This document shows positions 563 to 48,169 of a DNA stretch of 64,000 bases, piece by piece. The position numbers and the translations under genes are program-made. A model generated the notes under the pieces. That model was not told where the DNA came from and did not search any database. It worked only from the letters and a program-made list of their open reading frames with translations. Location: contig NZ_CP120638.1 in NCBI RefSeq assembly GCF_029537235.1, positions 992,001 through 1,056,000 on the forward strand, in the 5' to 3' direction. The stretch's first letter is position 1, and every line of letters starts with the position of its first letter. This stretch comes from Rhizobium sp. 32-5/1. Lineage in GTDB: Bacteria; Pseudomonadota; Alphaproteobacteria; Rhizobiales; Rhizobiaceae.

Positions 563-2007
563 CTACGATATGGCGGGGAAATTCAATTGGCAGCCGGGGT
601 TCATGACCATGGATGGATCGATGGCCTGCTTCAGGGCCGTGAGCAAGGTGCGCCGGGTAGGATCAAGCCGCTGTTCGAAATCGGCGCGCTTGAGGCGACC
701 GATGCCGTGCTCGGCGCTGATGCTGCCATCGTACCTGTCCAGAACCTGGTTCACGACCGTCTTTGCCTTGTAGATCCGGCTGGCTGCGTCCTCCGGTGAA
801 CAGCCTGCCGGTGGCAGGACATTGAGATGCACATTGCCGTCGCCCACATGGCCGTAGGACACGCTGATGCAGTCGGGAAGCGCATCCGTGACAGCCTGTT
901 CGGCGTCGCGCACGAAATCGGCAAGACGGGAGAGCGGCACGGAAATGTCCGTTCGCATATGGGGGCCGCGCTTGGCCTGTCCCTCGTTCATGCCTTCGCG
1001 GAAAAGCCAGAGATTGCGGGCCTGCGCCTGCGAGGCGGCGATGACACCATCAACGACAAGACCGTCCTCCATGACGCCCGTGAGGAAACGCTCCATCAGA
1101 TCGGCGATATCGACAAGACCGGAGCCGGAAATCTCCATAAGCACATAGGCCGGATAGTCTCCGGCAATCGGCATGGGCAAGTCGGGGATTGCTTCCCGCG
1201 CAAGGACGAAGGTGAGCGGCGGCATGAATTCGAAGGCCGACATCAGGTCGCAGCAATCGCGCCGGGCGCGGCGGTAGAGCTTGATCGCATCATCGAGCGA
1301 GGCAAGCCCCAGCAAGGCGGTCGCCACCTGATCGGGGAACGGCGTCAGCTTGATTGACACGGCGGTGATGATGCCGAGCGTGCCCTCGGCACCGATGAAA
1401 AGCTGCTTCAGGTCGATGCCGCGATTGTCCTTGCGCAGGGTCGATAGGCCATTGAAAATCGAACCATCGGGCAGCACCACCTCCAGGCCGAGGACCAGTT
1501 CGCGCGTCATGCCGTAGCGCAATACGTTGATGCCGCCCGCATTGGTGGAGACATTGCCGCCGATGCGGCAGGAGCCCTGGGCACCAAGCGCCAGGGGAAA
1601 TACATATCCTTTTCGGCAACGGCATCCTTCACATCTGACAGGATGCAACCGGCTTCGACCACGGCCGAAAAGTCATCCGCATCGATATTGCGAATGGTGG
1701 TCATGCGCTCGAGGCTCAAAACCACCTGGTTGGCCGGCTGATCGGGAATACCGCCCAGCACCAGTCCGGTATTTCCACCCTGAGGCACGATCGAAAGTCC
1801 AAGGTCGAGGCAAGTGCGAACCGCGGCGGCAACGCCTTCGGTCGAGCGCGGCCGCAGCACCGCTATGGCGCTGCTGGTCACGTCCCCGTGCCAATCCCGG
1901 CAAAAGCGCTGCATGTCCTTCGGGTCTGTCAACACCATGTCGCTGGACAACGCGGTCCACAGGGCTTCCTGCAAACCCGCAACCGCGCCTGTGACATCCA
2001 CCCTCAT
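563..2007 (-). CDS. FAD-linked D-2-hydroxyacid dehydrogenase (GlcD/D-lactate dehydrogenase family), frameshifted
   Basis: This is a flavoprotein of the FAD_binding_4/FAD-oxidase_C family that oxidises D-2-hydroxy acids (D-lactate, glycolate or 2-hydroxyglutarate type). The N-terminal part carries the FAD pyrophosphate loop PQGGNTGLVLGG. The C-terminal part has GHVGDGNVHLNV, SAEHGIGRLKR and a final DPSMVMNPG. The reading frame breaks at the GGGG of 1594-1597: adding one base joins the two halves through YFPLALGAQGSCRIGGN, as in intact homologues, giving about 481 residues, a normal length. It is transcribed with the GntR gene and divergently from denD. The substrate is not predictable; a sugar-acid-derived D-2-hydroxy acid is an inference from context. 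Confidence 0.85.
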
Positions 2008-2116
2008 GCTCCGACCTTTCCACCCAACCGCCGCATTGAAAATTGCTGCCTACCGCCGCTGAACGGCGAAGAATTTTCGCAGGCTTCTGAAATCCCATAT
2101 TTTCAAACCGGCAATA

Positions 2117-2137
2117 TAAGGTTATCAGACAACCTTA
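2117..2137. promoter_or_regulatory. Candidate GntR operator between divergent catabolic operons
   Basis: A perfect 7-bp inverted repeat (TAAGGTT, 7-nt spacer ATCAGAC, AACCTTA) sits in the 203-bp divergent region, about 75-95 bp ahead of the denD start and 110 bp ahead of the flavoprotein start. GntR/FCD proteins bind short palindromes of this size in their own promoters. Assigning it to the regulator at 1-529 is inference. Confidence 0.5.
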
Positions 2138-2210
2138 CAATAGCAATTTCTCGTCGTCCGTCACGGTTCAACCCCAGGCGGTTTGAGGGCGGGTTGAGGA
2201 GGAGAACCTT

Positions 2211-3192
2211 ATGCACATCCTGATCATCGGTGCCGCCGGCATGGTGGGCCGCAAGCTTGCCGCGAGACTGTCTGCCGACGGCCAGCTCGGCGGCCAACCG
2301 ATCTCTGAAATGACGCTGGTGGATGTCGTGACGCCGCAGGCGCCTTCCGGCTTTGCCGGCAAGGTCAACGCCAGGGAGGCTGATCTGTCGGCACCCGGCG
2401 AAGCCGAAGCGCTTGTCGCAGCGCGTCCCGATGTGATCTTCCATCTGGCGGCGATCGTCTCGGGCGAGGCCGAGCTTGATTTCGAAAAAGGCTACCGGAT
2501 CAATCTCGATGGCACGCGCACTCTGTTCGATGCCATTCGGCTGGCCAATGGCGCGGACGGCTACAGGCCGCGCGTCGTCTTCACCTCATCGATCGCCGTG
2601 GTGGGCGCCCCCTGCCCTATCCGATCCCGGACGACTATCATACGACGCCGCTGACCAGCTACGGCACGCAGAAGGCGATCTGCGAACTGCTTCTGTCCGA
2701 CTACAGCCGGCGTGGTTTCCTCGACGGCATCGCCATCCGCCTGCCGACGATCTGCATCCGCCCCGGCACGCCGAACAAGGCGGCGTCCGGCTTCTTCTCC
2801 AACATCCTGCGCGAACCACTGGTCGGCAAGGAGGCGGTCCTCCCGGTCTCCGACGATGTCCGCCACTGGCACACCTCGCCGCGCTCCGCTGTCGGCTTTC
2901 TCATCCATGGCGCAACCATCGATCTGGAGACGGTGGGACCGCGCCGGGCGCTCTCCATGCCGGGCCTCAGTGCGACCGTGGGCGAACAGATCGAAGCGCT
3001 GCGCCGCGTCGGCGGCGAAAAGGCGGTTGCGCTAATCCGCCGCGAGCCGGACGAGATGATCATCAAGATGGTCGCCGGCTGGGCTGCGGGTTTTGAAGCG
3101 ACACGCGCAAAAGCGCTTGGCTTTACCGCCGAAACCTCCTTTGATGAGATCATCCGCGTGCATATCGAGGATGAGCTGGGAGGGAACTTTGA
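2211..3192 (+). CDS. denD: D-erythronate dehydrogenase-like NAD-dependent epimerase/dehydratase, frameshifted
   Basis: This is an extended short-chain dehydrogenase of the DenD type, which oxidises D-erythronate at C2 using NAD. The glycine-rich NAD loop GAAGMVG is at residues 8-14 and the catalytic YxxxK pair appears as SYGTQK. The frame breaks in CCCCC at 2608-2612, where one missing C restores GAPLPYPIPDDYHTTPLTSYG. Read on from there, the frame runs past the next start to 3346. One further missing G in GGG at 3178-3180 would end the protein at the TGA of 3190-3192, overlapping the TTG of the next gene and giving about 327 residues, the usual DenD length. The ATG at 2211 follows GGAGGAGAACCTT. 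It is the first gene of the plus-strand operon. Confidence 0.8.
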
Positions 3193-4097
3193 GCGAAAAA
3201 CAAAACCGGCCGCATCGGATCGCTTTTCTTGGAACCGGACTGATGGGCGCCCCAATGGTGCGACGGCTGCTTGCCGCCGGTCATCGCGTCGCGGTCTGGA
3301 ACCGCGATCTTGCCAAGGCGCAGGCTCTGGCTTCGGATGGTGCTGAGGTAGCCGAAACGGCAGCAGCGGCAGTTGCGGCCTGCGATATCGTCTTCACCAT
3401 GCTGACCGACGGAAAAGCCGTTGAGGCTGTGCTGTTCGATGGCGGGGTCGCCGAAGTTTTGACCAAGGGCGCTGTCGTGATCGACGCCAGCTCCATCTCG
3501 CCGCTGATCGCCAGGGACCATTCGGCCCGCCTGGAGGCGCTCGGCCTCAGGCATGTCGATGCGCCGGTATCGGGCGGCGTGGTCGGTGCCGAGGCGGGAA
3601 CACTGGCCATCATGGCCGGTGGAGACGCGGATGTTATTGATGAACTCTCCGATGTGTTTGCAGCCCTTGGCCGGGTGACCCATGTCGGGCCGTCGGGTGC
3701 CGGGCAGATCTGCAAGCTCGCCAACCAGCAGATCGTCGCCATCACCATCGGCGCCGTTGCGGAAGCGATGATGCTAGTGGAAGCCGGCGGAGCGTCGCGC
3801 GAGAAATTCAGGGACGCGATCCGCGGCGGTTTTGCCGAGAGCCGTATTCTGGAGCTGCATGGCGCGCGCATGGTAATGCGCGATTTCACGCCCGGTGGTC
3901 CATCGAAGCTGCAGCTCAAGGACCTCAACGCCGTCAACGAGATGACCGGTCTGTTTTCGCTGGATTTGCCTTTGACCGAGCAAGTGCGCCAGGCCTTTTC
4001 CGACTTCGTAGCGGGCGGTGGCGGCGACATGGACCACAGCGCCCTGCTGCTGCATCTGGAAGCGATGAACACAGCCCCGAGCGGGGAGGAGAAATAA
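3189..4097 (+). CDS. ltnD: L-threonate dehydrogenase-like (3-hydroxyisobutyrate dehydrogenase family)
   Basis: A 302-residue NAD(P)-dependent beta-hydroxyacid dehydrogenase. The N-terminal Rossmann fold has [14 protein letters not shown], the substrate loop is [16 protein letters not shown], and the catalytic lysine is in [12 protein letters not shown]. The closest functional types are LtnD (L-threonate 2-dehydrogenase) and tartronate-semialdehyde reductase; its place beside denD favours a four-carbon sugar acid. I choose the TTG at 3189 because GGGAGGGAAC lies directly upstream and the TTGA overlap with the previous stop would couple translation. Its stop overlaps the next start by one base (TAATG). 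Confidence 0.8.
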
Positions 4098-5880
4098 TGA
4101 CCGAGGATAACAAGGGCGCGCGTCGTCTGCGCTCGCAGGACTGGTTTGACAATCCCGATCATCTCGACATGACGGCGCTCTATCTCGAGCGCTTCATGAA
4201 CTACGGCACGACGCCGGAAGAGCTGCGCTCCGGCAAGCCGATCATCGGCATTGCCCAGTCGGGCAGCGATATCAACCCCTGCAACCGGCACCATATCGAG
4301 CTTGCCAAGCGCGTTCGTGACGGCATCCGCGATGCCGGCGGCATACCCATCGAGTTTCCGACCCATCCGCTGTTTGAGAACTGCAAGCGGCCGACGGCGG
4401 CGCTCGACCGCAATCTCGCCTATCTCGGCCTGGTCGAGATTCTCTATGGCTATCCGCTCGACGGCGTGGTGCTGACCACGGGCTGCGACAAGACCACGCC
4501 TTCCGCGCTGATGGCGGCCTCGACCGTCGATATCCCGGCCATCGTCTTTTCCGGCGGCCCGATGCTCGACGGCTGGCATGATGGCGATCTGGTGGGGTCT
4601 GGCACAGTAATCTGGCGCGCGCGGCGCAAGTATGCGGCAGGCGAAATCACCCGCGAGGAGTTCCTGCAGTCAGCACTCGATTCGGCCCCGTCGATCGGCC
4701 ATTGCAACACCATGGGCACGGCCTCGACCATGAATGCCATGGCCGAAGCGCTCGGCATGTCGCTCACCGGTTGCGCCGCCATTCCGGCCGCCTATCGCGA
4801 GCGCGGCCAGATGGCCTATCGCACCGGGCGCCGCGCAGTGGAACTTGTACAGCAGGATATCAAGCCGTCGGATATTTTGACGCGCGAGGCGTTCTTGAAC
4901 GCGATCCGCGTCAATTCCGCGATCGGCGGATCGACCAATGCCCAGCCGCATCTGGCGGCCATGGCCAAACATGCCGGCGTCGACCTCTATCCCGACGACT
5001 GGCAGACTCATGGTTTCGACATTCCGCTCTTGGCCAATGTGCAGCCAGCCGGCGCCTATCTTGGCGAGCGCTTCCACCGGGCCGGCGGCGTTCCCGCCAT
5101 CATGTGGGAATTGCTGCAAGCCGGTAAACTGGACGCCGGCTGTCCGACCGTGACCGGCAAGACCTTGGCGGAAAATCTGGAAGGCCGGGAATCAACCGAC
5201 CGCGAGGTTATCCTGCCGTATGATGCACCGCTCAAGGAACGCGCCGGCTTCCTCGTGCTGAAAGGCAATCTCTTCGATTTCGCCATCATGAAGATGAGCG
5301 TCATTTCGGCCGGCTTCCGCGAACGCTATCTGAGCGAACCGGGCAAGGAAGGTGTATTTGAAGGCAAGGCCGTGGTTTTCGACGGCTCCGAGGATTACCA
5401 CAAGCGCATCAACGATCCGGATCTTGATATCGACGAGCGTACGATCCTCGTCATCCGCGGCGCCGGCCCGCTCGGTTGGCCGGGCTCGGCCGAAGTGGTC
5501 AATATGCAGCCGCCGGACTACCTGATCAAAAAGGCATCCTCAGCCTTCCGACCATCGGTGACGGTCGCCAGTCCGGCACGGCCGACAGCCCGTCGATCCT
5601 CAACGCCTCCCCGGAAAGTGCGGCCGGCGGCGGCCGCGCCTATGTGCGCAGCGGCGACGTCATCCGCATCGATTTCAACCAAGGCCGTTGCGATATGCTG
5701 GTTACGCCTGAGGAAATCGAGCGGCGCAAGGCGGACGGCATTCCGGCCGTTCCAGCCGACGCCACGCCCTGGCAGATGCTTTACCGTCGCACCGTGACGC
5801 AATTGTCGGACGGCGCCGTCATCGAAGGTGCCCCGGAGTTTCGCAAGCTGGCTGAAAAGCTACCACGGCACAATCACTGA
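4097..5880 (+). CDS. IlvD/Edd-family sugar-acid dehydratase (xylonate/arabonate type), frameshifted
   Basis: A 2Fe-2S enzyme that removes water from an aldonate to give a 2-keto-3-deoxy acid. The three cluster cysteines are visible at about residues 62 (NPCNRHH), 130 ([10 protein letters not shown]) and 203 ([10 protein letters not shown]). The overall pattern, including the PRHNH C-terminus, resembles pentonate dehydratases such as Caulobacter XylD (recalled, not searched). The frame breaks at AAAAAGG, 5528-5534; one added base gives [19 protein letters not shown] and a 594-residue protein, the family norm. No kinase or aldolase gene follows, so the route after dehydration is unclear. Confidence 0.85.
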
Positions 5881-5966
5881 GACTATGCGCTGGGAGCAAG
5901 CGGGACCGGTACTGCAGGAGAGATATCTGCAGTCGCCGGCCCGGCGCGGTGCGTTTCAGAAACCGC

Positions 5967-6143
5967 TTACGTCTGATGGGCGTCGCTTTTGCCCTTCCGT
6001 CGGAGATCGACCTTGCAGCGGTCCGAACAGGTTTTGACGCTGTCCCAATCCCGCCTCCACTTCTTGCGCCAGGCAAACGGCCTGCCGCAGGCTTCACAGA
6101 TTTTCTCGGGCAGATTGGATTTGCTGTAGCGCGGTTCAGTCAT
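5967..6143 (-). CDS. DUF2256 small zinc-finger-like protein
   Basis: A 58-residue protein on the strand opposite the catabolic operon. It has the DUF2256 pattern: two Cys pairs, CEACGRPF and CSDRC, separated by the very basic WRKKWRRDWD. The family is small, conserved and uncharacterised, probably metal-binding. GGGAGGGG lies seven bases before the ATG. It fills most of the gap between the dehydratase and the SDR. It is shorter than usual ORF cut-offs and easily missed. Confidence 0.85.
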   Translation of the reverse strand: MTEPRYSKSNLPEKICEACGRPFAWRKKWRRDWDSVKTCSDRCKVDLRRKGKSDAHQT

Positions 6144-6293
6144 GGCTTGCCCCTCCCTTTCGGCGTCTTACGCAACTCTTGGACGCCGGTGACATTGGAA
6201 AACGTCGACAAGCTGCTTGAAGCGCGCAAGTAATAGCGATTACGGCGAGGCGGCAACACCGCTTCGCCTGTCCAGGAATAGAAGGATTGCCCC

Positions 6294-7066
6294 ATGACCG
6301 AAACAGCTCCACAGATCGATCTCAACTTCCCGCTCACCGGCAAGGTGGCACTGGTCACAGGGGGCGCCTCCGGTATCGGCGCCGCCATCACGGCTGCGCT
6401 GTCTGCCAAGGAGCCCGCATCGCAGTCCTCGATATCAATGCCGATGCGGCTAAGGCGCAGGCCGACAGGCTGGGTGATAATGCCAAATGCTTCGTCTGCA
6501 ACGTGGCCGACGCTGCATCCGTCGAAGCGGCTGTCGCTGAGGTGGTAACGGCCTTCGGGGGCATCGACATCGCCGTCAACAGCGCGGGCATCGCGCTTCT
6601 CGCCCCGGCGGAAGAGCTTACGCTCGATCATTGGCAGAAGACCATCGGCATCAACCTGACCGGAACCTTCCTCGTTACCCAGGCTGTGGGCCGGGCGATG
6701 ATTGCGGCAGGCCGTGGCGGCAAAATCATCAACCTCGCCTCGCAGGCCGGCACTGTCGCGATCGAGGAGCATGTCGCCTATTGCGCCTCCAAATTCGGCG
6801 TCATCGGCATGTCGAAGACGTTTGCCGCCGAATGGGGAAAACACGGCATATGCGTCAACACCTTGTCGCCAACCATCGTGCTCACCGATCTTGGCCGCAA
6901 GGCATGGGCCGGAGAAAAGGGCGAGGCTGCCAAAAGGCGCATCCCAAATGGCCGTTTTGCCTACCCGGAAGAAATCGCCGCTGCCGCCGTCTTCTTCGCT
7001 TCCGCAGGCGCCGACATGATCAACGGCGCCGATCTGCTCATCGACGGCGGCTACACCATTCTCTGA
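6294..7066 (+). CDS. SDR-family polyol dehydrogenase, D-threitol dehydrogenase (GolD/DthD) type, frameshifted
   Basis: A classical short-chain dehydrogenase of about 257 residues: cofactor loop TGGASGIG, NSAG motif, catalytic YCASK, and the C-terminal INGADLLIDGGYTIL. The motif set is that of threitol/glycerol-type dehydrogenases of the GolD group (recalled family resemblance). The frame breaks at GG, 6410-6411; one added G gives AKGARIAVLDI. A kinase remnant of the dihydroxyacetone/erythrulose kinase family follows 50 bp downstream, which fits conversion of a tetritol to erythrulose and then its phosphate. Substrate identity is inference. Confidence 0.8.
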
Positions 7067-7116
7067 CACGTGACAGGCGTCCGACAAAGACAGACCTTTC
7101 ACAGGGAGCTTATATC

Positions 7117-7261
7117 TGAAGATCAATCAACAATCCGGACGAAGTCGTCGAAGACACCGTGAAGGGGTTCGTCAAGGCACATTCGGATCTGGTCCCACTC
7201 GGAGGCAATCCCCGCGTGATCGTCTCGAAAGCGCCACCGGCTACCGGCAAGGTCGCCGTCA
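7117..7261 (+). pseudogene. Dihydroxyacetone/erythrulose kinase (DhaK-type) N-terminal remnant
   Basis: Translation from 7126 gives INNPDEVVEDTVKGFV and then KAHSDLVPLGGNPRVIVSK, the conserved N-terminus of the DhaK domain (family members start M-K-K-x-I-N-x-P-x-x-V-V and continue to GKVAVVTGGGSGHEP). Homology stops abruptly after GKVAV, before the GGGSGHEP active-site loop. The expected start codon is also damaged: a TGA sits in frame at 7117. About 48 of more than 330 codons remain. The break coincides with the end of the DUF2161 gene at 7262, suggesting a deletion or insertion junction. Single-base errors cannot explain the loss. Confidence 0.75.
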
Positions 7262-7912
7262 CTAAGGCTGAGGCCACCGCTGCAAGGCTTCGCGGCCGGC
7301 ATTGGTCAAGCCGTAGACGCCTCTGTCGAGGCGTTCGAACCAGCCATAGACATTCGACAGCAAGAGCTTGCCTGCGTCCGGTACTGCTGTCCTTACATCG
7401 CGAACACGCGCGGGCCCAGTGGCGAGAGCGGCGGCACAGCCAAGCGCCTGCTGCCGATAGGCCGTCATCAGCGGCACACGCGTGCTGCCGCCGATGGCCG
7501 GATCACCACGTCTCTTCTGGTGTTCGCGCATCAGTCGTGACCGTCGTTTCGGATTGGTCCGCGGCATGGGGGATACGGACCCGACGATGACGCTGACATC
7601 GCCGCCATCGGATATGCCGAGCATGCCGATGCCCAGCCGCCGGCAAAGGTCGCGATAGCGCTTGTCGGCCTCCCGCCCCTTGCCCCTGGCGGAAACCTTC
7701 GCGGCGATCCAGACCTCATCAGAGATGGCGGCCCGGTCGACAGCCTGCAGGATAAGCTCCAGATTGAAGCTCAACTTGAGTTCGCAGATCACGACGATGG
7801 ACGGATCGTCTTCACTGAGGCCGACAAGATCACACCCGCCGACCTCGCCTTTGACGACATAGCCTGCCTTTTCGAGGAAGGATTTGACCGGAAGATAAAG
7901 GGACGTTTCCAT
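7262..7912 (-). CDS. DUF2161 protein with PD-(D/E)XK nuclease-like fold
   Basis: A 216-residue protein whose N-terminal half shows the PD-(D/E)XK arrangement: GCDLVGL (D), then VVICELKLSF (E-x-K). The C-terminal part has a basic linker (NPKRRSRLMREHQKRRGD) and a small winged-helix-like end. Members are annotated as DUF2161 putative phosphodiesterases; no function is established. I prefer the ATG at 7912; a TTG at 7927 is possible. It abuts the kinase remnant tail to tail and is probably the newcomer at that junction. Confidence 0.8.
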   Translation of the reverse strand: METSLYLPVKSFLEKAGYVVKGEVGGCDLVGLSEDDPSIVVICELKLSFNLELILQAVDRAAISDEVWIAAKVSARGKGREADKRYRDLCRRLGIGMLGISDGGDVSVIVGSVSPMPRTNPKRRSRLMREHQKRRGDPAIGGSTRVPLMTAYRQQALGCAAALATGPARVRDVRTAVPDAGKLLLSNVYGWFERLDRGVYGLTNAGREALQRWPQP

Positions 7913-8089
7913 GAGCGTGCGTATCAAACCAGAGAATCATTCTGCAAGCATACAAAGTTGGCCCGCGGTGATCACCGCATGACATGACCGGGATCGAATT
8001 GCTACTGGCGAGAACCCACCACGAGCGCCTGTTCCGTCACTGCACCAGCGCTCAAGCGCCAAATCCGGTCAATCGGGCAGCGCTTGTGA

Positions 8090-9138
8090 TCAAGACGGAC
8101 GTGGCGTGGGTGTCGGGACATCGACGGCGTTTTCATTTTGCCACGTCCGGACCGCATGGACCTGCCCCGGTATCTGGTCCCGCAGATAGGTTTCCTGGCC
8201 CGGCAGGCCCATCGGGTAAAGCGCATCGCGGCTGGCTTCATAGGCGACGCTCTGGTCCGTGCAGAGGCGGGTGCGCATATCCTGTGGCGCGACGTCAGGG
8301 CGGTTTTTGACATCGTCCACGCGACCTGAGGCGGACAGACGTCCAGCGAAGGCCTGCGTCAGATATTGCGCAGACCGCTCATTGCGCTCCCGCTCGGTGG
8401 TCGCGCCCAGGAGCACCACCATGACGCGCTTTCCTTGCCGGGTGGCGAGGCCGACGTAGTTGCGGCCGGAGGCACAAAGGAAGCCGGTCTTCATGCCGAT
8501 CGTGCCCGCGAAACGGGTCAGAAGCGCATTGTTGGACTTGATCTCCTTGCCGTCGATCGTCACGGCCGAGGCCTGAAAGAAGCGGCTGTATTCCGGGAAG
8601 AGCCGATCGACTTCCATCCCAAGGATCGCAAGATCGCGCGCGGTCGTCACTGTGCTGCGATCGAACAGGCCGTTCGGGCTGGCAAAATGGGTGCCTGTCA
8701 GGCCGAGGCGGGATGCTGCCGCATTCATACGCTGCACGAACGCGGATTCCTTGAAGCCACCGCTTCCGCCAGGGCGACCGCGACGTCATTGGCCGATGCG
8801 GTGATCGTGGCAAACAGCGCATCCTCAAGCGTCATCGTCCGCCCGAAGGTGAGGCCCGACTCCAGAAAAGCCTGTTTCGTCGCGTTGCGCGTCATCATGA
8901 CCGGCGTGCTCAGGGTGACTTCACCGGCGCGAAGCGCTTCGAAAACCACGAGCGCCGTCATGAGCTTGGTCGTCGAGGCCGGATACCAGGGCACGCCGGC
9001 ATCCTCCTGGTAGAGAACCTGACGGCTTGCAGTATCGACAACAAGCACAGGGGTGGCATGGGCGGGGATCGCCATGAAGAGCGCGACAAACAACGCTGCT
9101 ACTCGCCGTGGCCGTCCGGCCGATAATGTGTTGGTCAT
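8090..9138 (-). CDS. D-alanyl-D-alanine carboxypeptidase (penicillin-binding protein, S11 family), frameshifted
   Basis: A periplasmic peptidase that trims the terminal D-Ala of peptidoglycan stem peptides. It has an N-terminal signal sequence (VAALFVALFMAIPAHA), the catalytic SxxK as STTKLM, the SxN motif as SAND, and KTG in GMKTGFLC. The frame breaks around 8757-8766; one added base joins VALAEAV to GGFKESAFVQRM and yields about 349 residues. The ATG at 9138 has AGGAGA upstream. The C-terminus is proline-rich (PTPTPRPS). It stands alone, with no neighbour in cell-wall metabolism. Confidence 0.85.
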
Positions 9139-9376
9139 GCGACAGTCTCCTGAAGGTGTTCTCATGCCATGAGGCACCATGCAGGTACAAGTGTTTGCGA
9201 CGATGTGACGCCTCAGGTCGGGAACCGCACCACTTCAACCCGCGTTCCCGGACCATCCGCAGATATAGCGCGGAGATGGCGCATGCCAACCGCATGGTGG
9301 GGAATGAGACGCGCGACGGCCTGACGCCTGATCAGCACGGGGAGGAACAGTGCCGCACCTCCCCCGTGCCATGTTG

Positions 9377-10807
9377 TCAGCCCTTGACCGTCAGCAGCGG
9401 CCGAATCCTCGCCACCCTCTCCACAAGCCCCGCACCGACCATCGGATCGACAACCTGGTCGATTGGCCTGTAGGCCGATGGAGCCTCCTCGTTGAGGCGG
9501 GCTTCCACCTCGCCCAGAATGTCTGCCCGGGAGCGAATGCGTGGATCCTTCGTGTCGACAGGCCCGACGACACGGAGGTCGCTACCGATCCGGCCGACGG
9601 AACGCGCTTCTTGACGGGAGAGCTTGCGCCCGGCACCGTGCGCCGATGACGACAAGCCTTCAGCATTGCCACAGCCTCTCAGGAGCCAGCTTCCGTCGCC
9701 CATCGAACCCGGAAGGATGACCGGTTCGCCGAGCCACTCGTAGGGACTTCCTTGACGTCGCCAACCCCTCGCGCCGTGCAGGCCCCTTGCGGTGCCTGAC
9801 GACGCCATCCTTTTCCCACACAGTGTTGTGGGGTGCATCGTAGACCAGCCGTCCGGATAGTTCCCGCCCTGCCGCACGGGACAAGGCCTCCACGGCTGCG
9901 AGGCCGATGAGGAACCTGTTCACGAAAGCGGCATTGGCGGCATTGGCATGGCCGTCCAGATAGGCCGCATGGAGATCATCTCCGCGCGGGAGGATGCGAT
10001 AATCCCTTTTTCCCACACGGCTCGCCATCAACTTCTCGCGAACGGACGAACCAACATGCTGGCCGAAGTCCAAAGATCCGGAGTGGACGACAGCAACCAC
10101 CGTTCCGCGGCGAAGTCCCGCCGCCGATGCGAAGCGGCCGTCGGCGATATCGTCCACGACACCGACTTCAACGAAGTGGTTTCCGCCGCCGATCGTTCCC
10201 ATGAGCGCGTCGCGGCGATGGATATCATCGATGGCGGCATAGTCGGCAAACCCACCGACGACGCCCGAGCATGAAAACTGCCCATCGTCGCAGGTGCGAT
10301 CGACATCCTTCCACGCCTGATCGAGATCCATCTTGGCGAGAAGCCCTTCGCGTCCACGAGACAAGCTCTCCAGCAGGCCGGGAATTCCTCGCGCAGAAGG
10401 GCATGCCTGTCATGGCCCGTGAGCGCGATGTCCCTGCCGCCCTGGAAGAAGATATGTCGGAGGTGATGCTCGAGTTCCGGCCGAAGGTCGTCCTGCGTCA
10501 TGCCATCGAGAGCAAGCATCCGCATGCCGCATCCGATGTCGTTGCCGATCAGATGCGGAAGAACAGCGCCTTCGACATCGACGACGACGCCCACAGGCAC
10601 AGGTTTACCGGGATGAAAGTCGGGTGTTGTGACAACCGCGCGCAATGTTGCGCCCGCGTCGCTGAAGGCTTCGGGCGTCGGCAGCGCCGCGGACAAATCC
10701 TGCAGGGCGCGCAGGTGATGTTGCTCAGGCTCATCGCGTGCAACGACGGACCTGACGGAATGACCGGACGCGAAGCTGCTCCGGACGGGGTCTTGAGTGT
10801 GGGACAT
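9377..10807 (-). CDS. rtcB: RNA-splicing ligase RtcB, frameshifted at three places
   Basis: RtcB joins RNA 2',3'-cyclic phosphate ends to 5'-OH ends using GTP and Mn. Diagnostic segments: DFHPGKPVPVG, the Cys-metal site GNDIGCGMRML, TIGGGNHFVEV, VVHSGSLDFG, the guanylated-histidine motif HRKGA, EPVILPGSMGDGSWLL, and the C-terminal RIRPLLTVKG. Breaks lie near 10383-10390, 9781-9786 and about 9745; each needs one extra base, giving about 477 residues. The ATG at 10807 follows GGAGAAACAAC. No rtcA or rtcR lies nearby. Three breaks in one gene could also mean real decay. Confidence 0.85.
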
Positions 10808-11138
10808 GTTGTTTCTCCGTTGCCATGGTTTCAGCAGCCGCGGCAAAACAGATTGAGACCTTGCTACCGGTCGAACTGTAAAAAGTCAATTTTTCCGCTC
10901 GAGGCGGAAACAGCCGCCACCCGGCGGTTGCAAGAGAATTAAACCTCACACTGTTTGCCGAGGATCAAGAGACGGCGGACATGTGCTTCTCTCACCGATA
11001 AAGTTCGGGCTGTTGGCCACCCCGTCGAAAGACCTGCATTGCTCCTGTCCAGCAGAAGCGATATCAGAAGCAAGGCGCGGATAGATAACGCCTCGTGGAC
11101 GGGGATCAGGCACCCCGGGAAAGATTGACCGAGGACCC
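10808..11138. other. 331-bp intergenic region upstream of rtcB
   Basis: No convincing gene on either strand. The left end holds the likely rtcB promoter and the inverted repeat listed separately. The rest shows nothing that I recognise. Confidence 0.6.
10884..10910 (-). promoter_or_regulatory. Inverted repeat next to a putative -35 box upstream of rtcB
   Basis: TTTCCGC and GCGGAAA form a perfect 7-bp inverted repeat with a 5-nt spacer (10892-10910). On the minus strand it is followed at once by TTGACT (10889-10884), a good -35 hexamer, about 80 bp ahead of the rtcB start. The -10 element is weak. A regulator site overlapping the promoter is plausible but unproven. Confidence 0.4.
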
Positions 11139-17673: not shown

Positions 17674-17867
17674 CTAAAATGCCTTTGGCAGGCCCGCCTG
17701 CTTGAGGGTTTCATTGGCGGTATGGCGTGACTTCATTCCATGATCGACAGTGACATGTCGCTTCGAAAGCGGGCTGAACCATATTTCATGGTCGCCTTTT
17801 CCTGACCTCGCTATTAGCATCCCGCTTTCGTCAACAACTCTTTGAGATCTCTCAAATAGCTCGACAT
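17674..17867 (-). CDS. HicA-type toxin, frameshifted
   Basis: The N-terminal frame reads MSSYLRDLKELLTKAGC and stops. Adding one base near 17811-17817 joins it to LIARSGKGDHEIWFSP, then KRHVTVDHGMKSRHTANETL and the end KQAGLPKAF. This is the HicA double-stranded-RNA-binding-like fold, with the catalytic His in the GDHEIW motif. The span is 194 bp, exactly one base short of 65 codons. HicA toxins cleave mRNA. It starts 7 bp after the HicB-like gene. Whether the break is real (dead toxin) or an error is open. Confidence 0.7.
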
Positions 17868-18189: not shown

Positions 18190-20855
<2,666 letters not shown>

Positions 20856-28500: not shown

Positions 28501-29009
28501 ATGCCGGCCGCTTCTTCGAGCAACTGCCGGCGGGCCTGCGGTTTTGCCGCAATCAGCTCGCCGATCCGGCCCTGGCCGACCATGGACGGCGAGCGCGCCC
28601 CGGTCGAGGCATCGGCAAACAGAAGCTGCACATCCTTGGCCCGGGCTTCCTTGCCGTTGATGCGATAGACCGAGCCGTTTTCCCGCTCGATCCGCCGCGT
28701 CACCTGGATTTCATCGCTGTCGTTGAAGGCGGCAGGCGCGGTGCGATCGGAATTGTCGAGATAAAGGCCAACTTCGGCGGTGTTTCGCGCCGGGCGATTG
28801 CCGGATCCGGAAAAGATCACGTCGTCCATGCCGGACGCCCGCATGTTCTTGTAGGAATTCTCCCCCATCACCCAGCGCAGCGCCTCGACAAGGTTCGACT
28901 TGCCGCACCCATTCGGCCCGACAACGCCGGTCAGGCCGCGCTCGATCACAAATTCGGTGGGCTCGACGAAGGATTTGAAGCCGAGAAGACGGAGACGGTT
29001 GAATTTCAT
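25550..29009 (-). CDS. smc: Chromosome segregation ATPase SMC, frameshifted at two places
   Basis: SMC condenses and segregates the chromosome with ScpA/ScpB. Walker [10 protein letters not shown] lies at about residues 32-40, followed by long coiled coils, a hinge near residues 500-640, and the C-terminal ABC signature [11 protein letters not shown] with Walker [14 protein letters not shown]. Breaks lie in TTTTT at 27801-27805 and in the GG near 26361-26366; each needs one extra base (restoring [12 protein letters not shown] and ENVARAEERLV). The repaired protein has 1153 residues, normal for rhizobia. An smc this conserved is unlikely to be truly broken. Its ribosome site lies inside a hairpin. 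Confidence 0.95.
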
Positions 29010-30115: not shown

Positions 30116-30691
30116 TCATTTTTTACCCTGCGACATCACCGCCGTGCCGAGCCGGGTGAGCGCCGCCTTCAGCGCGTCGCTTTCGATGCCGCCGATCATG
30201 GCGTCGAGCTTGCGAGCGGGTTCGCCGGTCAGCGGCCTTGGCTTGAAGTTGGGCTTGCGGGGTGCTGACACCGGCTTCTGTACGATGCGGATCTGGTTGA
30301 TCGCCGGGAAACCGAAGAAGCCGTTGATCCGCTGGATAAGCTCGCCCTGCGCATGGGTCAGGAACAGCGCGCGCGCGCCTTCGCAGGCAATCGTCAGCAC
30401 GCCCGGCAGATAGCCGCCGTCCTGCCCGCTTTCGGACGCCCTGCGCTGCCAGGCGATCTTTTCCGGCCGGGTGCAATCGGCAAAGTCCTCGCCGGCGATC
30501 TCATCCCAGGAACCAAGCAAAAGCGTGTTGATGCCGGCGCGCTTGGCGAGCAGCGGATCGATCAGGCCGTTGGCGACTTCGCTGATCTGGACGACGCCCC
30601 TGCACGTATAGGGTTGCTTCAAGAGAAGGACTTCCGGTTTTGTTTTAAAGCCTTGAAGGAAGGCGAACACTTCGCCAAGTATAGGATACAA
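30116..30691 (-). CDS. DciA-like protein (DUF721)
   Basis: A protein of up to 191 residues with the DUF721 fold (LAKRAGINTLLLGSWDEIAGEDFADCTRPEKIAW, then LTIACEGARALFLTH and INGFFGFPAINQIRIVQ). DciA proteins load the replicative helicase in bacteria that lack DnaC. The exact start is uncertain: TTG 30691, or an internal TTG before KQPYTCRGVVQISEV. It diverges from mutY with only 16 bp between the starts of the longest reading frames. Confidence 0.8.
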   Translation of the reverse strand: MYPILGEVFAFLQGFKTKPEVLLLKQPYTCRGVVQISEVANGLIDPLLAKRAGINTLLLGSWDEIAGEDFADCTRPEKIAWQRRASESGQDGGYLPGVLTIACEGARALFLTHAQGELIQRINGFFGFPAINQIRIVQKPVSAPRKPNFKPRPLTGEPARKLDAMIGGIESDALKAALTRLGTAVMSQGKK

Positions 30692-38726: not shown

Positions 38727-38894
38727 ACGGCAGGCGGCAATCTCCGCCTTTATTGCCGCGCTGCCGGGCAGATGTCGAGGGTGCGGCAACGCATTGCATG
38801 GCAGCCACCCGTTGTTGGCGGTTGAGGTTTGAGCCGCCATCGTGTAAGTCGCGGCCATCCTCCCCAAGCGATCGCCTCAAAGGAATTTACCGGC

Positions 38895-39590: not shown

Positions 39591-39638
39591 AGCCTGTTGC
39601 GCATTGAAAGCGCGAAAGACCGCTCAGAAGAGCGTCGC

Positions 39639-40100: not shown

Positions 40101-40149
40101 TGATGCCGTTCCGCTTCGCGCCGGACCTTCGGGTCTGGTCCGCCTTCAA

Positions 40150-40692: not shown

Positions 40693-41056
40693 GTGACGTG
40701 ACCCCTGCTTTCGCCTTGAACGCATCGTTTGAACAATCAGCCGCAAACTGCGACTTTTTCTGCCCGATGCGCCGGGCCTTTTGTCTTTCAAGACCCTTGG
40801 CGATGGTCTATAGCAGCGGCGCATGGAAAAATCGATTGGAGTCTGTGCGGCGGCAATCAAAATTTCAGCAGCCTCTGATGCGCGAAAATCCGGCTCTTCC
40901 GAAGCAAATTTAGGGAGCGCAGCGCGGGGATTCTCCTCAGCTTTGCCAGTGATTGACGCAAAGAGAACCACGTTTGCAGCACGGCTCGGCTAGGATACGG
41001 CCGAGCTGAAAAAGGCGCCAAGGCGCCGACGAACGTATGACGAAGGATGGACAAAG

Positions 41057-42453
41057 GTGAAGTATGTCTCGACGCGGGGCCAGGCCCTTCTCTCGGCTTC
41101 TGCGATGCCCTCATGGCCGGTCTTGGCCGCGATGGCGGGCTCTATGTCCCGGAGACATGGCCGTCCTTCTCCAAGAAGGAAATCCGCGCTTTGCGCGGCA
41201 AATCCTACCAGGACATCGCCTTCACGGTTCTGACACCCTTCGTCGGCGATGAGATCCCGGCCGACGTTTTTCGCGCGATGATCGACGAGGCGTACGCCAC
41301 TTTCCGGCATCCGGCCATTGTCCCGCTCGTGCAGACCGGGCCGAATGCCTTCATCATGGAACTGTTCCACGGCTCGACGCTTGCCTTCAAGGATGTCGCC
41401 ATGCAGCTTCTGGCACGGCTGATGGATCACGTGCTGACGGAGCGCGGCGAACGCGCAACCATCGTCGGCGCGACATCCGGCGATACAGGGGGCGCTGCGA
41501 TAGACGCCTTTGCCGGGCGCGAGCGCACCGACATCTTCATCCTGTTCCCGCATGGCAAGGTTTCGCCGGTGCAGCAGCACCAGATGACCACATCGAAGGC
41601 GTCCAACGTGCATGCGGTGGCGCTCAACGGCAATTTCGACGACTGCCAGAACCTCGTCAAGGCGATGTTCAATGACACGTCGTTTCGCGACGGCGTCGCA
41701 CTTTCCGGGGTCAATTCGATCAACTGGGCGCGCATCATGGCGCAGATCGTCTATTACTTCACCACGGCAATTGCGCTCGGCGCCCCGGATCGCAAGGTTT
41801 CTTTCACCGTGCCGACAGGCAATTTCGGCGACATCTTTGCCGGCTACGTCGCCAAGAAAATGGGCCTGCCGATCGATCGCCTCGTCGTTGCCACCAACGA
41901 AAACGACATCCTGGCGCGGGCTCTGAAGACCGGGCGCTACGAGATGCGCGGCGTCAAGGCCACGACCTCGCCCTCCATGGACATCCAGATCTCCTCGAAT
42001 TTCGAACGTCTGCTGTTCGAGGCCAACGACCGCGACGCCTCCAAGGTGCGCGCCGCCATGGAAAGCCTGACGCAGTCGGGCGGTTTCGAACTGGGTGAAA
42101 CGGCGCTGAAGGCAATCCGCAAGGAATTCCGCGCCGGTCGCGCTTCGGAAAAGGAAGTTGCCAGAACCATCAGGGAAACACTTGCCGCAACCGGCTATCT
42201 ACTGGATCCCCATACGGCCATCGGCGTGTTCGTCGCGGCGAAACACGAAAAACCCACCTCGCCCATGGTGACGCTTGCCACCGCCCATCCGGCAAAATTC
42301 CCGGCTGCGGTAAAATCGGCCAGTGGTATTGACCCGGCGCTTCCAACGTGGCTTGCTGATCTGATGGATAGGGAGGAGCGTTTCGACATTCTGGAGCCAG
42401 AGCTTGAAGCCGTTGAAGACTATATCAACGCGCATGCTCGCATCCGGAAATAG
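41057..42453 (+). CDS. thrC: Threonine synthase, frameshifted near the N-terminus
   Basis: ThrC converts O-phospho-homoserine to threonine with pyridoxal phosphate. The PLP lysine is in STLAFKDVAMQ, and the phosphate-binding and catalytic loops are GATSGDTGGAAI and VPTGNFGDIFAGYV. The likely true start is GTG 41057, giving MKYVSTRGQAPSLGF once one C is added to CCC at 41085-41087; the protein is then 465 residues. In the sequence as given, an ATG at 41047 reads through with a wrong N-terminus (MDKGEVCLDAGPGPSLG), which hides the break. It is followed by the M16 peptidase gene. Confidence 0.95.
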
Positions 42454-42473
42454 GAATGCAGAAAGACGGATCA

Positions 42474-43771: not shown

Positions 43772-43788
43772 AGCAAGGCATCATAACT

Positions 43789-43818
43789 GCAGCAGGACTT
43801 GTCGACTGGCCCTGCTGC
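43789..43818 (+). terminator. Hairpin after the thrC-M16 peptidase operon
   Basis: GCAGCAGG, a 14-nt loop and CCTGCTGC form a perfect 8-bp stem 17 bp after the peptidase stop. No T-run follows (GAAAAACC), so intrinsic termination is uncertain. Confidence 0.4.
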
Positions 43819-43890
43819 GAAAAACCTTAACGCTCGGGCTCGCCCGGCGTATTACGTAGTGGTCCGTTAATCCGAGATCCGGAGGCTCGC

Positions 43891-44502
43891 ATGGCAAGAT
43901 CGGTGTTTCGGTTCCTGTCGCGGCAGCCGGATCCGATGGAGATTGCCAGCGCCAACCATTTCCTGCGCCTTCCCCGCACATCCGATTATCGCCAGTGGTT
44001 CACCTTGCGAAGCGAAAGCCGGACGTTTCTGGAACCCTGGGAGCCGACATGGCAAAGCGGCGAGATGAGTGAAAGCGCCTTTCGCGCGCGGGTGATCCGC
44101 AACGAGCAGGAATTTTCTTCTGGACAGGCCGTGCCGCTGCTCCTCTTTTCTCGGACAGACGCCACGCTTCTGGGCGGGATCACCATTGGATATATCCGCC
44201 GCGGCTCCGCGCAATGCTGCATGATCGGCTACTGGATGGGCGAGCGTTTTTCCGGCCAAGGCCATATGGCGCAGGGTGTCAAGCTGGTCATCCCCTATAT
44301 CTTTTCCAGCCTTCAGTTGCACCGTATCGAAGCAGCCTGTATTCCCGAGAACCAAAGAAGCATAAGACTCCTTGAAAAGGCCGGCTTTCAGCGTGAAGGC
44401 TACCTGCGGGAGTACCTGAAAATCAACGGGCAATGGCGCGATCACCTGATGTTCTCTCTGCTTTCGAAGGACATCACGCCAAACAGGAATTTGAGTATCT
44501 GA
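43891..44502 (+). CDS. GNAT-family acetyltransferase (RimJ/RimL-like)
   Basis: A 203-residue acetyltransferase: substrate part LPRTSDYRQWFTLRSES, acetyl-CoA-binding GYWMGERFSGQGHMAQGV (Q-x-G-x-G-type loop as R/S-G-Q-G-H-M), and a C-terminal IPENQRSIRLLEKAGFQREG. RimJ-like enzymes acetylate protein N-termini or small molecules. Its stop overlaps the ATG of the GGDEF/EAL gene by one base (TGATG), implying coupled translation. Confidence 0.85.
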   Translation: MARSVFRFLSRQPDPMEIASANHFLRLPRTSDYRQWFTLRSESRTFLEPWEPTWQSGEMSESAFRARVIRNEQEFSSGQAVPLLLFSRTDATLLGGITIGYIRRGSAQCCMIGYWMGERFSGQGHMAQGVKLVIPYIFSSLQLHRIEAACIPENQRSIRLLEKAGFQREGYLREYLKINGQWRDHLMFSLLSKDITPNRNLSI

Positions 44503-47414
44503 TGTCTTTCACCCGAGGGTCGTTTCACTCGTCAGCAGCAGGCATGCTTGCCGTGTTGTTCGCCTTGACGGCCGCCCTTTTATCCCTTGTCGCGACGCCT
44601 GCGCAGGCGACCGAGCCAGTGAAAATCTCGCGCGAGGATACGGCACTCGACCTGACGGCCACCACCGAAATCTACACGGGACGCGGCGAAGCCTTCCAGG
44701 TTTCGACGGCACCTGGAACGGACGGCATCGTGCGGCGCATCGAGGTGCGCTCCAGCGCCGAAAACCACCAGGGCGACTGGGCCGTCTTCGCGCTCGCCAA
44801 CGTCTCGGAAGAACAACTGGAGCGCGTCATCGTCGCCCCACACTTTCGCCTGGTGAATTCCAAGCTGTTCTGGCCGGACCTCGGCTCGCAGCGCATCTTG
44901 TCGATCACGCCGTCCGAAGGTTTCGCGCTCGACCGCCAGCCGAGCGAGGAAGCCGACGTCTTCCGCATCACGCTCAACCCCGGCTCCGTCATCACTTTCG
45001 TCGCAGAGCTTGCCACGCCCGACCTGCCGCAGATCTATCTCTGGGAACCGGACGCTTACAAGGACACGGTCAACGCCTTCACGCTCTATCGCGGCATCGT
45101 GCTCGGCATTGCCGGCCTGCTTGCGGTGTTCCTGACCATCCTTTTCGTGGTCAAGGGCACCTCGATGCTGCCAGCGACAGCCGCACTCGCCTGGGCGGTG
45201 CTGGCCTATATCTGCGTCGATTTCGGCTTCCTGTCGAAACTGATCGCGATCACCGCCGGCGACGAGCGAATATGGCGCGCGGGAACCGAGGTGTTCCTCG
45301 CGGCCGGTCTCGTCATCTTCCTGTTCACCTATCTCAACCTCAACCGCTGGCACCAGCACCTGTCTTATGCGACGCTGGCTTGGATTCTCGGCCTTGGCCT
45401 TTTGTTCGGCGTCGCCATCTACGATCCGGCGATTGCGGCGGGCATTGCCCGCCTGTCCTTTGCACTCACCGGCACTGCCGGCATCGTGCTGATCGCCTAT
45501 CTCGGCTTCAACCGCTACGACCGCGCCATCCTTCTGGTGCCCGCCTGGCTGCTGATCCTCGTCTGGCTGTTCGGCGCCTGGCTGACCGTGACCGGACAGC
45601 TCGCCAACGACATCGTCCAGCCGGCGCTCGGCGGAGGCCTCGTACTCATCGTGCTTCTCATCGGCTTCACGGTTATGCAGCACGCCTTTTCCGGCGGCGC
45701 CTACAGCCAGGGCCTGTTTTCCGACCTCGAGCGCCAGTCGCTGGCGCTGACCGGTTCCGGCGATACCGTCTGGGACTGGGACGTGGCCCGCGACCGGGTG
45801 GTGACCATCCCTGATATCTCGGCGCAGCTCGGCCTTTCGCCCGGCACCATGCACGGTGCTGCCCGCAACTGGCTGCCGCGCCTGCATCCGGATGATCGCG
45901 ACCGGTTCCGCGCGACGCTCGACGTGCTGCTCGAACATCGCCGCGGGCGGCTCAACCATGAATTCCGGGTTCGCGCCGAAGACGGCCACTATCACTGGCT
46001 CGCCATTCGCGCCCGTCCGGTCCTTGGGTCGAACGGCGAGATCATCCGTTGCGTCGGCACGATCGTCGATATCACCGAGCAGAAGAATTCCATCGACCGG
46101 CTGCTCCACGACGCGCTGCACGACAACCTGACCGGACTGCCGAACCGGCAGATCTTCCTCGACCGGCTGCAATCCATCCTGTCGCTGGCGCCCGGTTCGA
46201 ACTCCGTGCGTCCGACCGTGATCGCCATCGATATCGACCGCTACCGGAGCGTAAACGAGAAGTTCGGCATCGCTGCCGGTGACAATATCCTGATCGCGCT
46301 GACCCGCCGCCTGCGCCGCCTGATGAAGCCGCAAGACACACTTGCACGCCTGGGCGGCGACCATTTCGGGTTGGTGCTGATGTCCGAGCGCGATCCGGCC
46401 AAAGTCGCCGACTTCGCCGATGCAGTCTCCAAGGCCATCATGGTGCCGCTCAATTTCGGCAAAAACGAAATCAACCTGACGGCCTCGATCGGTCTCGTCT
46501 CCTGGGTCGACCAGCAGGAAAATGCCATCGGCCTGCTCGGCGATGCGGAACTGGCGATGTTCCGCGCCAAGAAGGCCGGCGGCAACCGGGTCGAGCCGTT
46601 CCGTCCGGCCTTCCGTGCCTCGGGCACGGACCGCCTGCAACTGGAAAGTGACCTGCGCCGCGCCATCGAGCGCAAGGAACTCTCGCTCGTCTACCAGCCG
46701 ATCGTGCGGCTTCATGATGCCGAAATCGCCGGCTTCGAGGCACTGATGCGCTGGGATCATCCCAAGCGCGGCAATATCTCGCCGACGGAATTCATCCCGA
46801 TCGCCGAAAATTCCGATCTGATCAATCAGCTCGGCATGTTTGCGTTTGAAAAGGCGGCGAGCGACCTGACCGAATGGCAGATCCAGACCGGAGACCTGCC
46901 GATCTTCGTTTCGGTCAACCTGTCGAGCGCGCAACTGCTCAACAACGATCTCTACGACGACATTCGCGCCGTTCTGAACAAGAACCGCTGCGACCCGCAG
47001 AAGATCAAGATCGAAATCACCGAATCCGTCGTCATGGAAAATCCCGAACAGGCGCGGCTGGTGCTGGAAAAACTCAAGGAGGCCGGGCTAAAGCTGGCGC
47101 TGGACGATTTCGGGACAGGCTACTCGTCGCTCGCCTACCTGACCCGCTTCCCCTTCGATACGATCAAGATCGACAAGGCGCTGGTAAAGGATCCAAGCGA
47201 CAAGCGCACGATCCTGTTGCGCTCAGTCATCACCATGGCCCGCGACCTCGACATGCAGGTGGTTGCCGAAGGCATCGAATCGGAAGAGGACGCCATCCAG
47301 CTCGCCCAGATGGGCTGCGACTTCGGCCAGAGCTTCCTCTTCGGCCCACCGATCGGCGCGGAATCGATCCAGCGCTTGCTGAAGGAACGGTTTCCGTTGA
47401 TGAAGAGGGCGTGA
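44502..47414 (+). CDS. Membrane c-di-GMP protein: 7TMR-type sensor, PAS, degenerate GGDEF, intact EAL
   Basis: A 970-residue protein. A signal sequence (to about residue 37) leads to a periplasmic domain (about 40-190), seven hydrophobic segments (about 200-410), a PAS/PAC region (about 420-530, DYHWLAIRARP-like HYHWLAIRARPV), a GGDEF domain reading GGDHF, and an EAL domain. The EAL metal and catalytic residues are all present: GFEALMRW, VNLSSAQL, EITESVVMENP, LDDFGTGYSS, IKIDKALV, VVAEGIES, FGQSF. It is therefore most likely a phosphodiesterase whose GGDHF domain is regulatory. It is co-translated with the GNAT gene. Confidence 0.9.
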   Translation: MSFTRGSFHSSAAGMLAVLFALTAALLSLVATPAQATEPVKISREDTALDLTATTEIYTGRGEAFQVSTAPGTDGIVRRIEVRSSAENHQGDWAVFALANVSEEQLERVIVAPHFRLVNSKLFWPDLGSQRILSITPSEGFALDRQPSEEADVFRITLNPGSVITFVAELATPDLPQIYLWEPDAYKDTVNAFTLYRGIVLGIAGLLAVFLTILFVVKGTSMLPATAALAWAVLAYICVDFGFLSKLIAITAGDERIWRAGTEVFLAAGLVIFLFTYLNLNRWHQHLSYATLAWILGLGLLFGVAIYDPAIAAGIARLSFALTGTAGIVLIAYLGFNRYDRAILLVPAWLLILVWLFGAWLTVTGQLANDIVQPALGGGLVLIVLLIGFTVMQHAFSGGAYSQGLFSDLERQSLALTGSGDTVWDWDVARDRVVTIPDISAQLGLSPGTMHGAARNWLPRLHPDDRDRFRATLDVLLEHRRGRLNHEFRVRAEDGHYHWLAIRARPVLGSNGEIIRCVGTIVDITEQKNSIDRLLHDALHDNLTGLPNRQIFLDRLQSILSLAPGSNSVRPTVIAIDIDRYRSVNEKFGIAAGDNILIALTRRLRRLMKPQDTLARLGGDHFGLVLMSERDPAKVADFADAVSKAIMVPLNFGKNEINLTASIGLVSWVDQQENAIGLLGDAELAMFRAKKAGGNRVEPFRPAFRASGTDRLQLESDLRRAIERKELSLVYQPIVRLHDAEIAGFEALMRWDHPKRGNISPTEFIPIAENSDLINQLGMFAFEKAASDLTEWQIQTGDLPIFVSVNLSSAQLLNNDLYDDIRAVLNKNRCDPQKIKIEITESVVMENPEQARLVLEKLKEAGLKLALDDFGTGYSSLAYLTRFPFDTIKIDKALVKDPSDKRTILLRSVITMARDLDMQVVAEGIESEEDAIQLAQMGCDFGQSFLFGPPIGAESIQRLLKERFPLMKRA

Positions 47415-47417
47415 GTT

Positions 47418-47459
47418 AGCGAATAGCGAATAGCGAATAGCGAATAGCGAATAGCGAAT
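47418..47459. repeat. Tandem repeat, six perfect copies of AGCGAAT
   Basis: Six perfect 7-bp units begin three bases after the stop of the GGDEF/EAL gene. They are the reverse complement of the array at 47537-47564, so the two could fold into one long stem around a 77-nt loop. Because the unit is 7 bp, three units encode the seven-residue period YSLFAIR-type peptides in spurious frames. Confidence 0.9.
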
Positions 47460-47536
47460 AGTTCGAAGTCCTCGACCCATGGTCAATTAGAAAGTGTGAA
47501 TTCGAACTCGAAAGCCTTCGTATTCTTCGTTTTCCG

Positions 47537-47564
47537 ATTCGCTATTCGCTATTCGCTATTCGCT
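47537..47564. repeat. Tandem repeat, four perfect copies of ATTCGCT (inverse of the first array)
   Basis: Four units, inverted relative to the AGCGAAT array, end seven bases before the stop codon of the minus-strand DUF922 gene. The pair occupies almost the whole convergent intergenic space, and may act as a bidirectional terminator or be an expanding simple repeat. I recall such 7-mers as dispersed in rhizobial genomes, but this is not verified here. Confidence 0.9.
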
Positions 47565-47570
47565 CCCTTT

Positions 47571-48169
47571 CTACGGCCCATTCACCAGCTCCAGCACCAG
47601 CTGATGGACGTTGCCGCCGTCGTTAAGCTCGACCTGGTCGAAGTCCCGGCTTTTCTGACGTTGCGCCATGGAGAGAGCACCGAGACGCTTGGTCATCTCG
47701 GTCTTGATCGCCTGGCATTTCGGATCGCCGGGGATCGTCAGCCCCACGGTCGCCGCCTCGATCTTGCGCACCATGTCCTCGATGATATCGCCGTGCACGC
47801 GCTCATGAGCCTCCACACCGGTGATGAAGGTTTCCCAGCCTGCCTTGACGGCTTTCGGAAGCGTGCCCGTCACTTTCGGCAGGTGGTAGGTGACGATCAG
47901 CTTCGGCCGCGCCGAGACGAGCACGCAGGCATCCCCTGGCGCTCGTATTTCCGCGTCCAGGTCAGCTTGAAGTTTGTGTAGGCAATGACGCGCGCAAGGC
48001 CACCAATCTTCGGGCCGTTCTCACCGATCGATTGATAGAGTTCGGCGCCGGAATTTCCGCGCACGGCATAGGTCTTTACAGCTTCACTGCGCTTCCAGTC
48101 CGCCTGCGAGGGAATGGCCGACGACGCGAAAAGGGCGAGAGCCCAGATCAAATTTTTCGGCGCCGTCAT
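47571..48169 (-). CDS. DUF922 secreted protein with HExxH-like motif, frameshifted
   Basis: About 199 residues. A signal peptide (ALALFASSAIPSQA) precedes the DUF922 domain, with TYAVRGNSGAELYQSIGENGP at its start and GVEAHERVHGDII in the core; H-E-R-V-H is a zinc-protease-like motif. The frame breaks in CCCC at 47933-47936; one added base gives ERQGDACVLVSARPKLIVTY. DUF922 proteins are proposed zinc-dependent peptidases. It converges on the GGDEF/EAL gene across the 7-mer arrays. Confidence 0.75.

Follow-up and report, generated by a model that had tools for sequence, protein, structure and literature searches.

Why do so many genes in a single 64,000-nucleotide stretch of the Rhizobium sp. 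32-5/1 genome appear to be cut by a missing base? The stretch (positions 992001-1056000 of contig C1, called the window in what follows) has a GC content of 61% and belongs to a genome of three contigs and 5.62 Mb. The original prediction, made from the letters of the window, listed at least fourteen one-base deletions that interrupt reading frames, smc and ppdK being among the genes hit, and attributed them to systematic consensus error. Comparison with related genomes leads us to the same answer. With a probability of about 0.96, the gene breaks in the window are assembly consensus errors, mostly one base dropped at a short run of identical bases, and not real damage to the genes. Consensus error is supported as the best explanation by the rate of breaks, by their length-random spread over genes, by the conservation of the broken genes and by the link to runs. 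It is an artefact of an ordinary, known kind.

The first step was to ask whether the fourteen breaks are there at all when judged against relatives. Open reading frames of related genomes were aligned to the window with a frameshift-tolerant protein-to-DNA procedure, a dynamic-programming aligner that allows frame changes at a cost, and support at each site was expressed as the number of relatives agreeing out of the number aligned. A change of one missing base (-1) was found for each of the fourteen, never more than about 20 bases away from the predicted position, and the same genes run in one frame in the relatives. At least two relatives back the call at nine sites (1594, 2608, 5528, 6410, 8757, 19614, 26361, 27801 and 41085), and one relative backs it at the other five (9745, 9781, 10383, 17811 and 47933). 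The references for 1594, 2608, 5528, 6410 and 41085 include Rhizobium sp. RCAM05350 (CP087974.1; G022/G031), itself an error-prone sequence, and at least two references remain at each of these sites when it is left out. The genes concerned are as follows.

561 to 2007, minus strand: FAD-linked oxidase (GlcD-like); Pfam FAD-oxidase_C, NCBIfam glcD below the cut-off; -1 near 1592-1613, beside a run of four G; 3 of 3 references.
2211 to 3184, plus strand: D-erythronate dehydrogenase family gene; NF043036 above the cut-off in a relative's protein; -1 near 2602-2608, beside a run of five C; 5 of 5 references.
4097 to 5877, plus strand: IlvD/EDD-family dehydratase gene; Pfam and NF009560; -1 near 5529-5534, at a run of five A; 5 of 5 references.
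6294 to 7063, plus strand: GolD/DthD-family dehydrogenase (SDR) gene; NF005309; -1 near 6400-6406; 3 of 3 references.
8093 to 9123, minus strand: peptidase S11 gene (D-Ala-D-Ala carboxypeptidase family); Pfam; -1 near 8741-8753; 4 of 4 references.
9380 to 10852, minus strand: RtcB-family gene; three -1 changes, near 9752, 9781 and 10389; 1 of 1 reference (G036, 66% identity).
17677 to 17867, minus strand: 64-codon open reading frame conserved in one relative; no NCBIfam match; -1 near 17815; 1 of 1 reference (Pararhizobium antarcticum, G021).
18193 to 20855, minus strand: ppdK (pyruvate, phosphate dikinase), with no other copy found in the genome; TIGR01828, in two separate matches; -1 near 19612; 5 of 5 references.
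25553 to 29009, minus strand: smc (chromosome segregation protein), with no other copy found in the genome; TIGR02168; two -1 changes, near 26372 and 27805, at runs of four and five T; 5 of 5 references each.
41048 to 42453, plus strand: thrC (threonine synthase); TIGR00260; -1 near 41085, close to the start codon; 7 of 7 references.
47577 to 48169, minus strand: gene for a protein of 199 amino acids, no NCBIfam match; -1 near 47937, beside a run of four C; 1 of 1 reference (Pararhizobium antarcticum, 84%).

The RtcB-family gene is also split into three separate PF01139 profile matches, and its alignment to G036 contains a further +1/-1 pair near the gene start. Details of the prediction fared unevenly. 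Its repaired length for PpdK (888) fits three of five references; that for SMC (1153) falls one residue short of the 1154 found in three of five. For ThrC the predicted 465 was wrong, the references giving 468 amino acids in six of seven and 447 in RCAM05350; the thrC break lies about 13 codons from the start, and a 468-codon open reading frame is still present there. The statement that most breaks lie in or beside a homopolymer of 2-5 bases used a criterion too weak to mean much; with the alignments read by eye, runs of at least four identical bases occur at 8 of the 14 sites. The first 10.4 kb of the window (1594-10390) holds 8 of the 14 breaks (binomial p = 0.0006, noticed after the fact), which perhaps marks a locally thin or noisy stretch of reads.

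Is the density of breaks unusual? For a count over more of the genome, a strict test was applied. A break was counted only if it was backed by two or more relatives making up at least 60% of those covering it, if the residues flanking it are conserved, on the left as on the right, and if no one frame accounts for 98% of the gene. This conserved-flank version replaced looser versions of the pipeline, which made many false calls where gene starts are mis-set in relatives; one such version had placed a +1 near the start of the gene at 30119-30691, which the strict version dropped, and no +1 event within the window passes the strict test. Seven of the fourteen window sites enter the strict automatic count. 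The other seven (6410, the three in rtcB, 17811, 41085 and 47933), seen by frameshift-tolerant alignment only, are absent from it: the strict pipeline needs at least two relatives and sometimes picks an antisense open reading frame. For thrC the alignment was made by hand. The test covered five stretches of this genome at first and a sixth later. Four stretches with breaks are on C1, of which two adjoin each other, another with breaks is on C2, and the remaining one is on C3. As controls we used stretches of at least 15 kb from seven relatives, each with leave-one-out references.

The contrast is large. This genome has 43 strict breaks in 284.7 kb of tested coding sequence, which fall in 38 of 255 genes (14.9%), against 12 breaks, spread over 12 of 482 genes, in the 535.6 kb tested in the seven relatives together. 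By sign, the 43 consist of 35 -1, 5 +1, 2 -2 and 1 +2, and the relatives' 12 of 3 -1, 5 +1, 2 -2 and 2 +2; the -1 rate is thus 22-fold above that of the seven relatives. Five of the six stretches contain breaks, and the C3 stretch, with only 0.9 kb tested, has zero strict breaks. For the sixth stretch, where the comparison is at the level of a single relative, 16 of 86 genes are broken here against 6 of 79 in G007 and 7 of 90 in G003. This contrast is smaller; the two reciprocal controls rest on one relative each and are excluded from the control total. RCAM05350 aside, this genome alone of the eight shows the excess of breaks. The prediction that every break is repaired by adding a base and never by removing one held for the fourteen window sites and failed genome-wide, where 5 of 43 strict breaks are +1; the +1 share (5, to 35 of -1) nevertheless stays far from the parity that would have counted against consensus error.

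The estimated completeness of the assembly tells a similar story. It is 87.47%, whereas 24 of 25 other genomes of the genus reach 99-100% and one stands at 78%; this last genome is treated here as one with RCAM05350, since the coordinates and scores are identical. The gap in completeness is close to the 14.9% of tested genes that are broken, and the value of 87% is probably depressed by false frame breaks. By rough extrapolation, a rate of about 0.15 false breaks for each kb of coding sequence would amount to roughly 700 in the whole genome, if 87% of it is taken to be coding.

Could the breaks be true inactivating deletions in a strain that is losing genes? All fourteen window breaks are deletions, and several of the genes hit are dispensable in principle (sugar-acid pathway genes, rtcB). 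The original prediction held that random decay would give insertions as well as deletions. This argument makes only part of the case: natural bacterial indels, and gene decay with them, are biased toward deletion, so that the sign bias (all 14 breaks of the window, and 35 to 5 in the sample) is not decisive by itself. Better evidence comes from where the breaks fall. In a decaying genome they should gather in dispensable, poorly conserved genes, and the observed spread follows gene length instead: 217, 33 and 5 genes have no, one, and two or more breaks, where length-random placement predicts 216.5, 34.4 and 4.1. The breaks are indifferent to conservation: when the genes are split into thirds by this measure, the rate per kb is 0.200 in the lowest, 0.094 in the middle and 0.163 in the highest, so the most conserved third is not spared. 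Nor do the 38 broken genes, set beside the 217 intact ones, have the relaxed conservation expected of true pseudogenes, as identity to relatives is 0.822 in the former and 0.824 in the latter (p = 0.91), and inner stop codons are in no clear excess in the broken genes (5 per 17,436 codons, against 17 per 77,462 in the intact ones). Strict -1 calls do not clump significantly over 320 kb in 20-kb bins (p = 0.55).

The two genes that the prediction expected decay to spare are both broken. In a genome-wide profile search, smc appears only as separate pieces and ppdK likewise; no intact second copy of either was found, which leaves the broken copies as the only ones found. In the five relatives apart from RCAM05350, both genes are present as long open copies. 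We favor error over decay because of the length-like spread, the lack of conservation loss, the absence of an intact smc or ppdK copy, the load confined to this genome and the link to runs described below, and we regard real gene decay as highly improbable.

What, then, do the sites have in common? Twenty-five of the 35 strict -1 sites lie within four bases of a run of at least four identical bases, against 8.2% of random coding positions (p = 5e-20). The runs at these 25 sites are of G in ten cases, C in nine, and A and T in three each, so that G or C accounts for 19 of 25. At several sites the relatives disagree among themselves at the position adjoining the run, and an apparent loss of a lone base between like bases may therefore equally be a run that was read one base short. 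A palindromic motif behind the deletions was considered and rejected, as the best of 16 motifs, CCNGG, occurs at 5 of 35 sites (p = 0.04) and is not significant after correction. The likely cause is an assembly of a long-read, nanopore-type kind without polishing by accurate reads. Under-called run lengths would then account for the loss of single bases at runs of four or more, and the living cell would carry intact genes.

Two other explanations also draw on the runs. Real deletions might be tolerated if transcriptional or ribosomal slippage on homopolymers restored the frame, as described at poly(A) tracts in insect endosymbionts, and it would suit this idea that most -1 sites lie at runs and that the broken genes stay conserved. 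Known slippage needs longer A/T tracts, however, whereas the runs here are short and mostly G or C, and the relatives carry the same genes in one frame. Alternatively, the isolate could belong to a real frameshift mutator lineage, for example one deficient in mismatch repair, caught shortly after its mutations had arisen. Such a defect classically leaves single-base deletions in runs, and a spread of breaks that is random over genes would be expected of it. On the other hand, hundreds of inactivating breaks, including two in the only smc copy found, would hardly leave a cell viable.

The smaller class of breaks, the insertions, bears on both of these explanations. GANTC is the CcrM methylation motif, methylated in many Alphaproteobacteria. 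The motif occurs about 1.2 times per kb in the 584 kb sampled. Of the five strict +1 sites, four are inside it or directly adjoin it (p = 3e-4 uncorrected, about 0.005 after correction for the 16 motifs, of which it is the best). In a relaxed set, 9 of 24 +1 sites are at GANTC, against 2 of 50 in relatives (Fisher p = 4e-4). The numbers are small, the motif was noticed while alignments were being read, and the relaxed set includes the sites that suggested it, so we treat the link of insertions to GANTC as a lead rather than a clean test. Slippage leaves this class unexplained, and GANTC insertions are not expected from a mismatch-repair defect. We consider the mutator lineage extremely improbable and slippage practically negligible.

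Read by eye, eight of the nine relaxed GANTC insertions take two forms: a base is gained either just outside GAATC/GATTC or inside it. These two forms recur in the C1 stretches 472001-552000 and 1136001-1276000 of this genome. If errors of assembly are the source of the breaks, the recurrent insertions are possibly a trace of CcrM methylation in the assembly, with methylated adenine in GANTC disturbing the basecaller so that single bases would be gained in or against the motif. It is a tentative proposal, to which we would give somewhat less than an even chance, that the insertion errors, in their two recurrent forms, passively report CcrM methylation. There is a partial precedent. Nanopore assembly errors are reported near the CcrM motif in other Alphaproteobacteria as well, GANTC being found near errors in long-read assemblies of agrobacteria in a 2025 study (PMC12710330) and a similar association being described in Brucella (PMC12392509). 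The errors described there at GANTC are single-nucleotide polymorphisms or of unspecified type, whereas the GANTC-linked class here consists of single-base insertions.

How does the pattern compare with assemblies of known nanopore origin? RCAM05350, from the same genus set and likewise full of frame breaks, was assembled from R9.4.1 MinION reads only, with Flye, Racon and medaka (PMC9583796), and published as complete. We count 45 breaks in 66.7 kb of it, of which 31 are +1; they hit 27 of the 63 genes tested. Its breaks are thus about 4.5 times denser than those here and of the opposite prevailing sign, and its rpoB, which is intact in Rhizobium sp. 32-5/1, is broken into seven separate matches in more than one frame. 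The opposite sign has perhaps come about through the basecaller and polisher, although this is a guess. GANTC was also considered for the RCAM05350 insertions and rejected: it occurs at 7 of 31, compared with 8.6%, which ranks it second among the 16 motifs, but the p of 0.014 does not survive correction, and many of these insertions are in other contexts.

A closer likeness is found in a nanopore Pseudomonas assembly treated in the Kastor study (PMC12007338), in which mostly homopolymer-tied false deletions dominate and fragment genes. The Pseudomonas errors were most common at A/T runs, whereas G/C runs prevail here (19 of 25), and the platform of the present assembly is inferred. Residual indel error in unpolished nanopore bacterial assemblies is also treated in PMC12392509 and PMC10687267. 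NCBI applies the remark "many frameshifted proteins" to problematic assemblies (PMC10228379), and the present assembly would fall in that class.

The window is part of a Pararhizobium-type genome. The best named match of a protein of 993 amino acids encoded at 44433-47414 is from Pararhizobium antarcticum (96%), among 80 matches listed, from which records of the genome itself have possibly been excluded. A Rhizobium-like homologue of this protein, with 80% identity, is found in JAIBEK010000028.1, titled an Arenimonas metagenome-assembled genome, which may be mis-binned or mislabelled. In the P. antarcticum genome used as a reference, contig 74 (NZ_LSRP01000074.1, 240,094 bases) behaves like a palindrome, with the same queries matching at equal scores in mirror positions on opposite strands; this is probably an inverted duplication made in assembly.

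Several observations weigh against consensus error as the explanation of the breaks, or against parts of it. It is judged from the consensus sequences of this genome and of the relatives. Six of the 14 window sites have no run of at least four identical bases by eye. Among the strict calls, one -1 (C1, about 497344) and one -2 (C1, about 977662) are doubtful, with no gap against the DNA of the nearest relative; two -1 calls are without a DNA-level gap vote; and the exact position of the +2 and of one +1 is not clear. The break rate is lower in the middle conservation third, and the intact rpoB is a further point on this side. Finally, the nanopore congener errs mostly by insertion, and nanopore origin alone does not predict deletions.

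For the biology of this strain and its genus, the finding is first of all a warning on this record, to which a small lead on GANTC-linked insertions is added. Gene counts, lists of pseudogenes and functions reported as lost from this assembly are unreliable, as about 15% of tested genes (38 of 255) are falsely broken. At least one other genome of the genus set, published as complete, is worse (RCAM05350, 27 of 63 genes). Readings of such genomes in terms of frameshifting, recoding or decay should first be checked for the run signature. If the proposal for the insertions is true, the GANTC methylation of an isolate would be inferable from an unpolished public assembly and its relatives alone.

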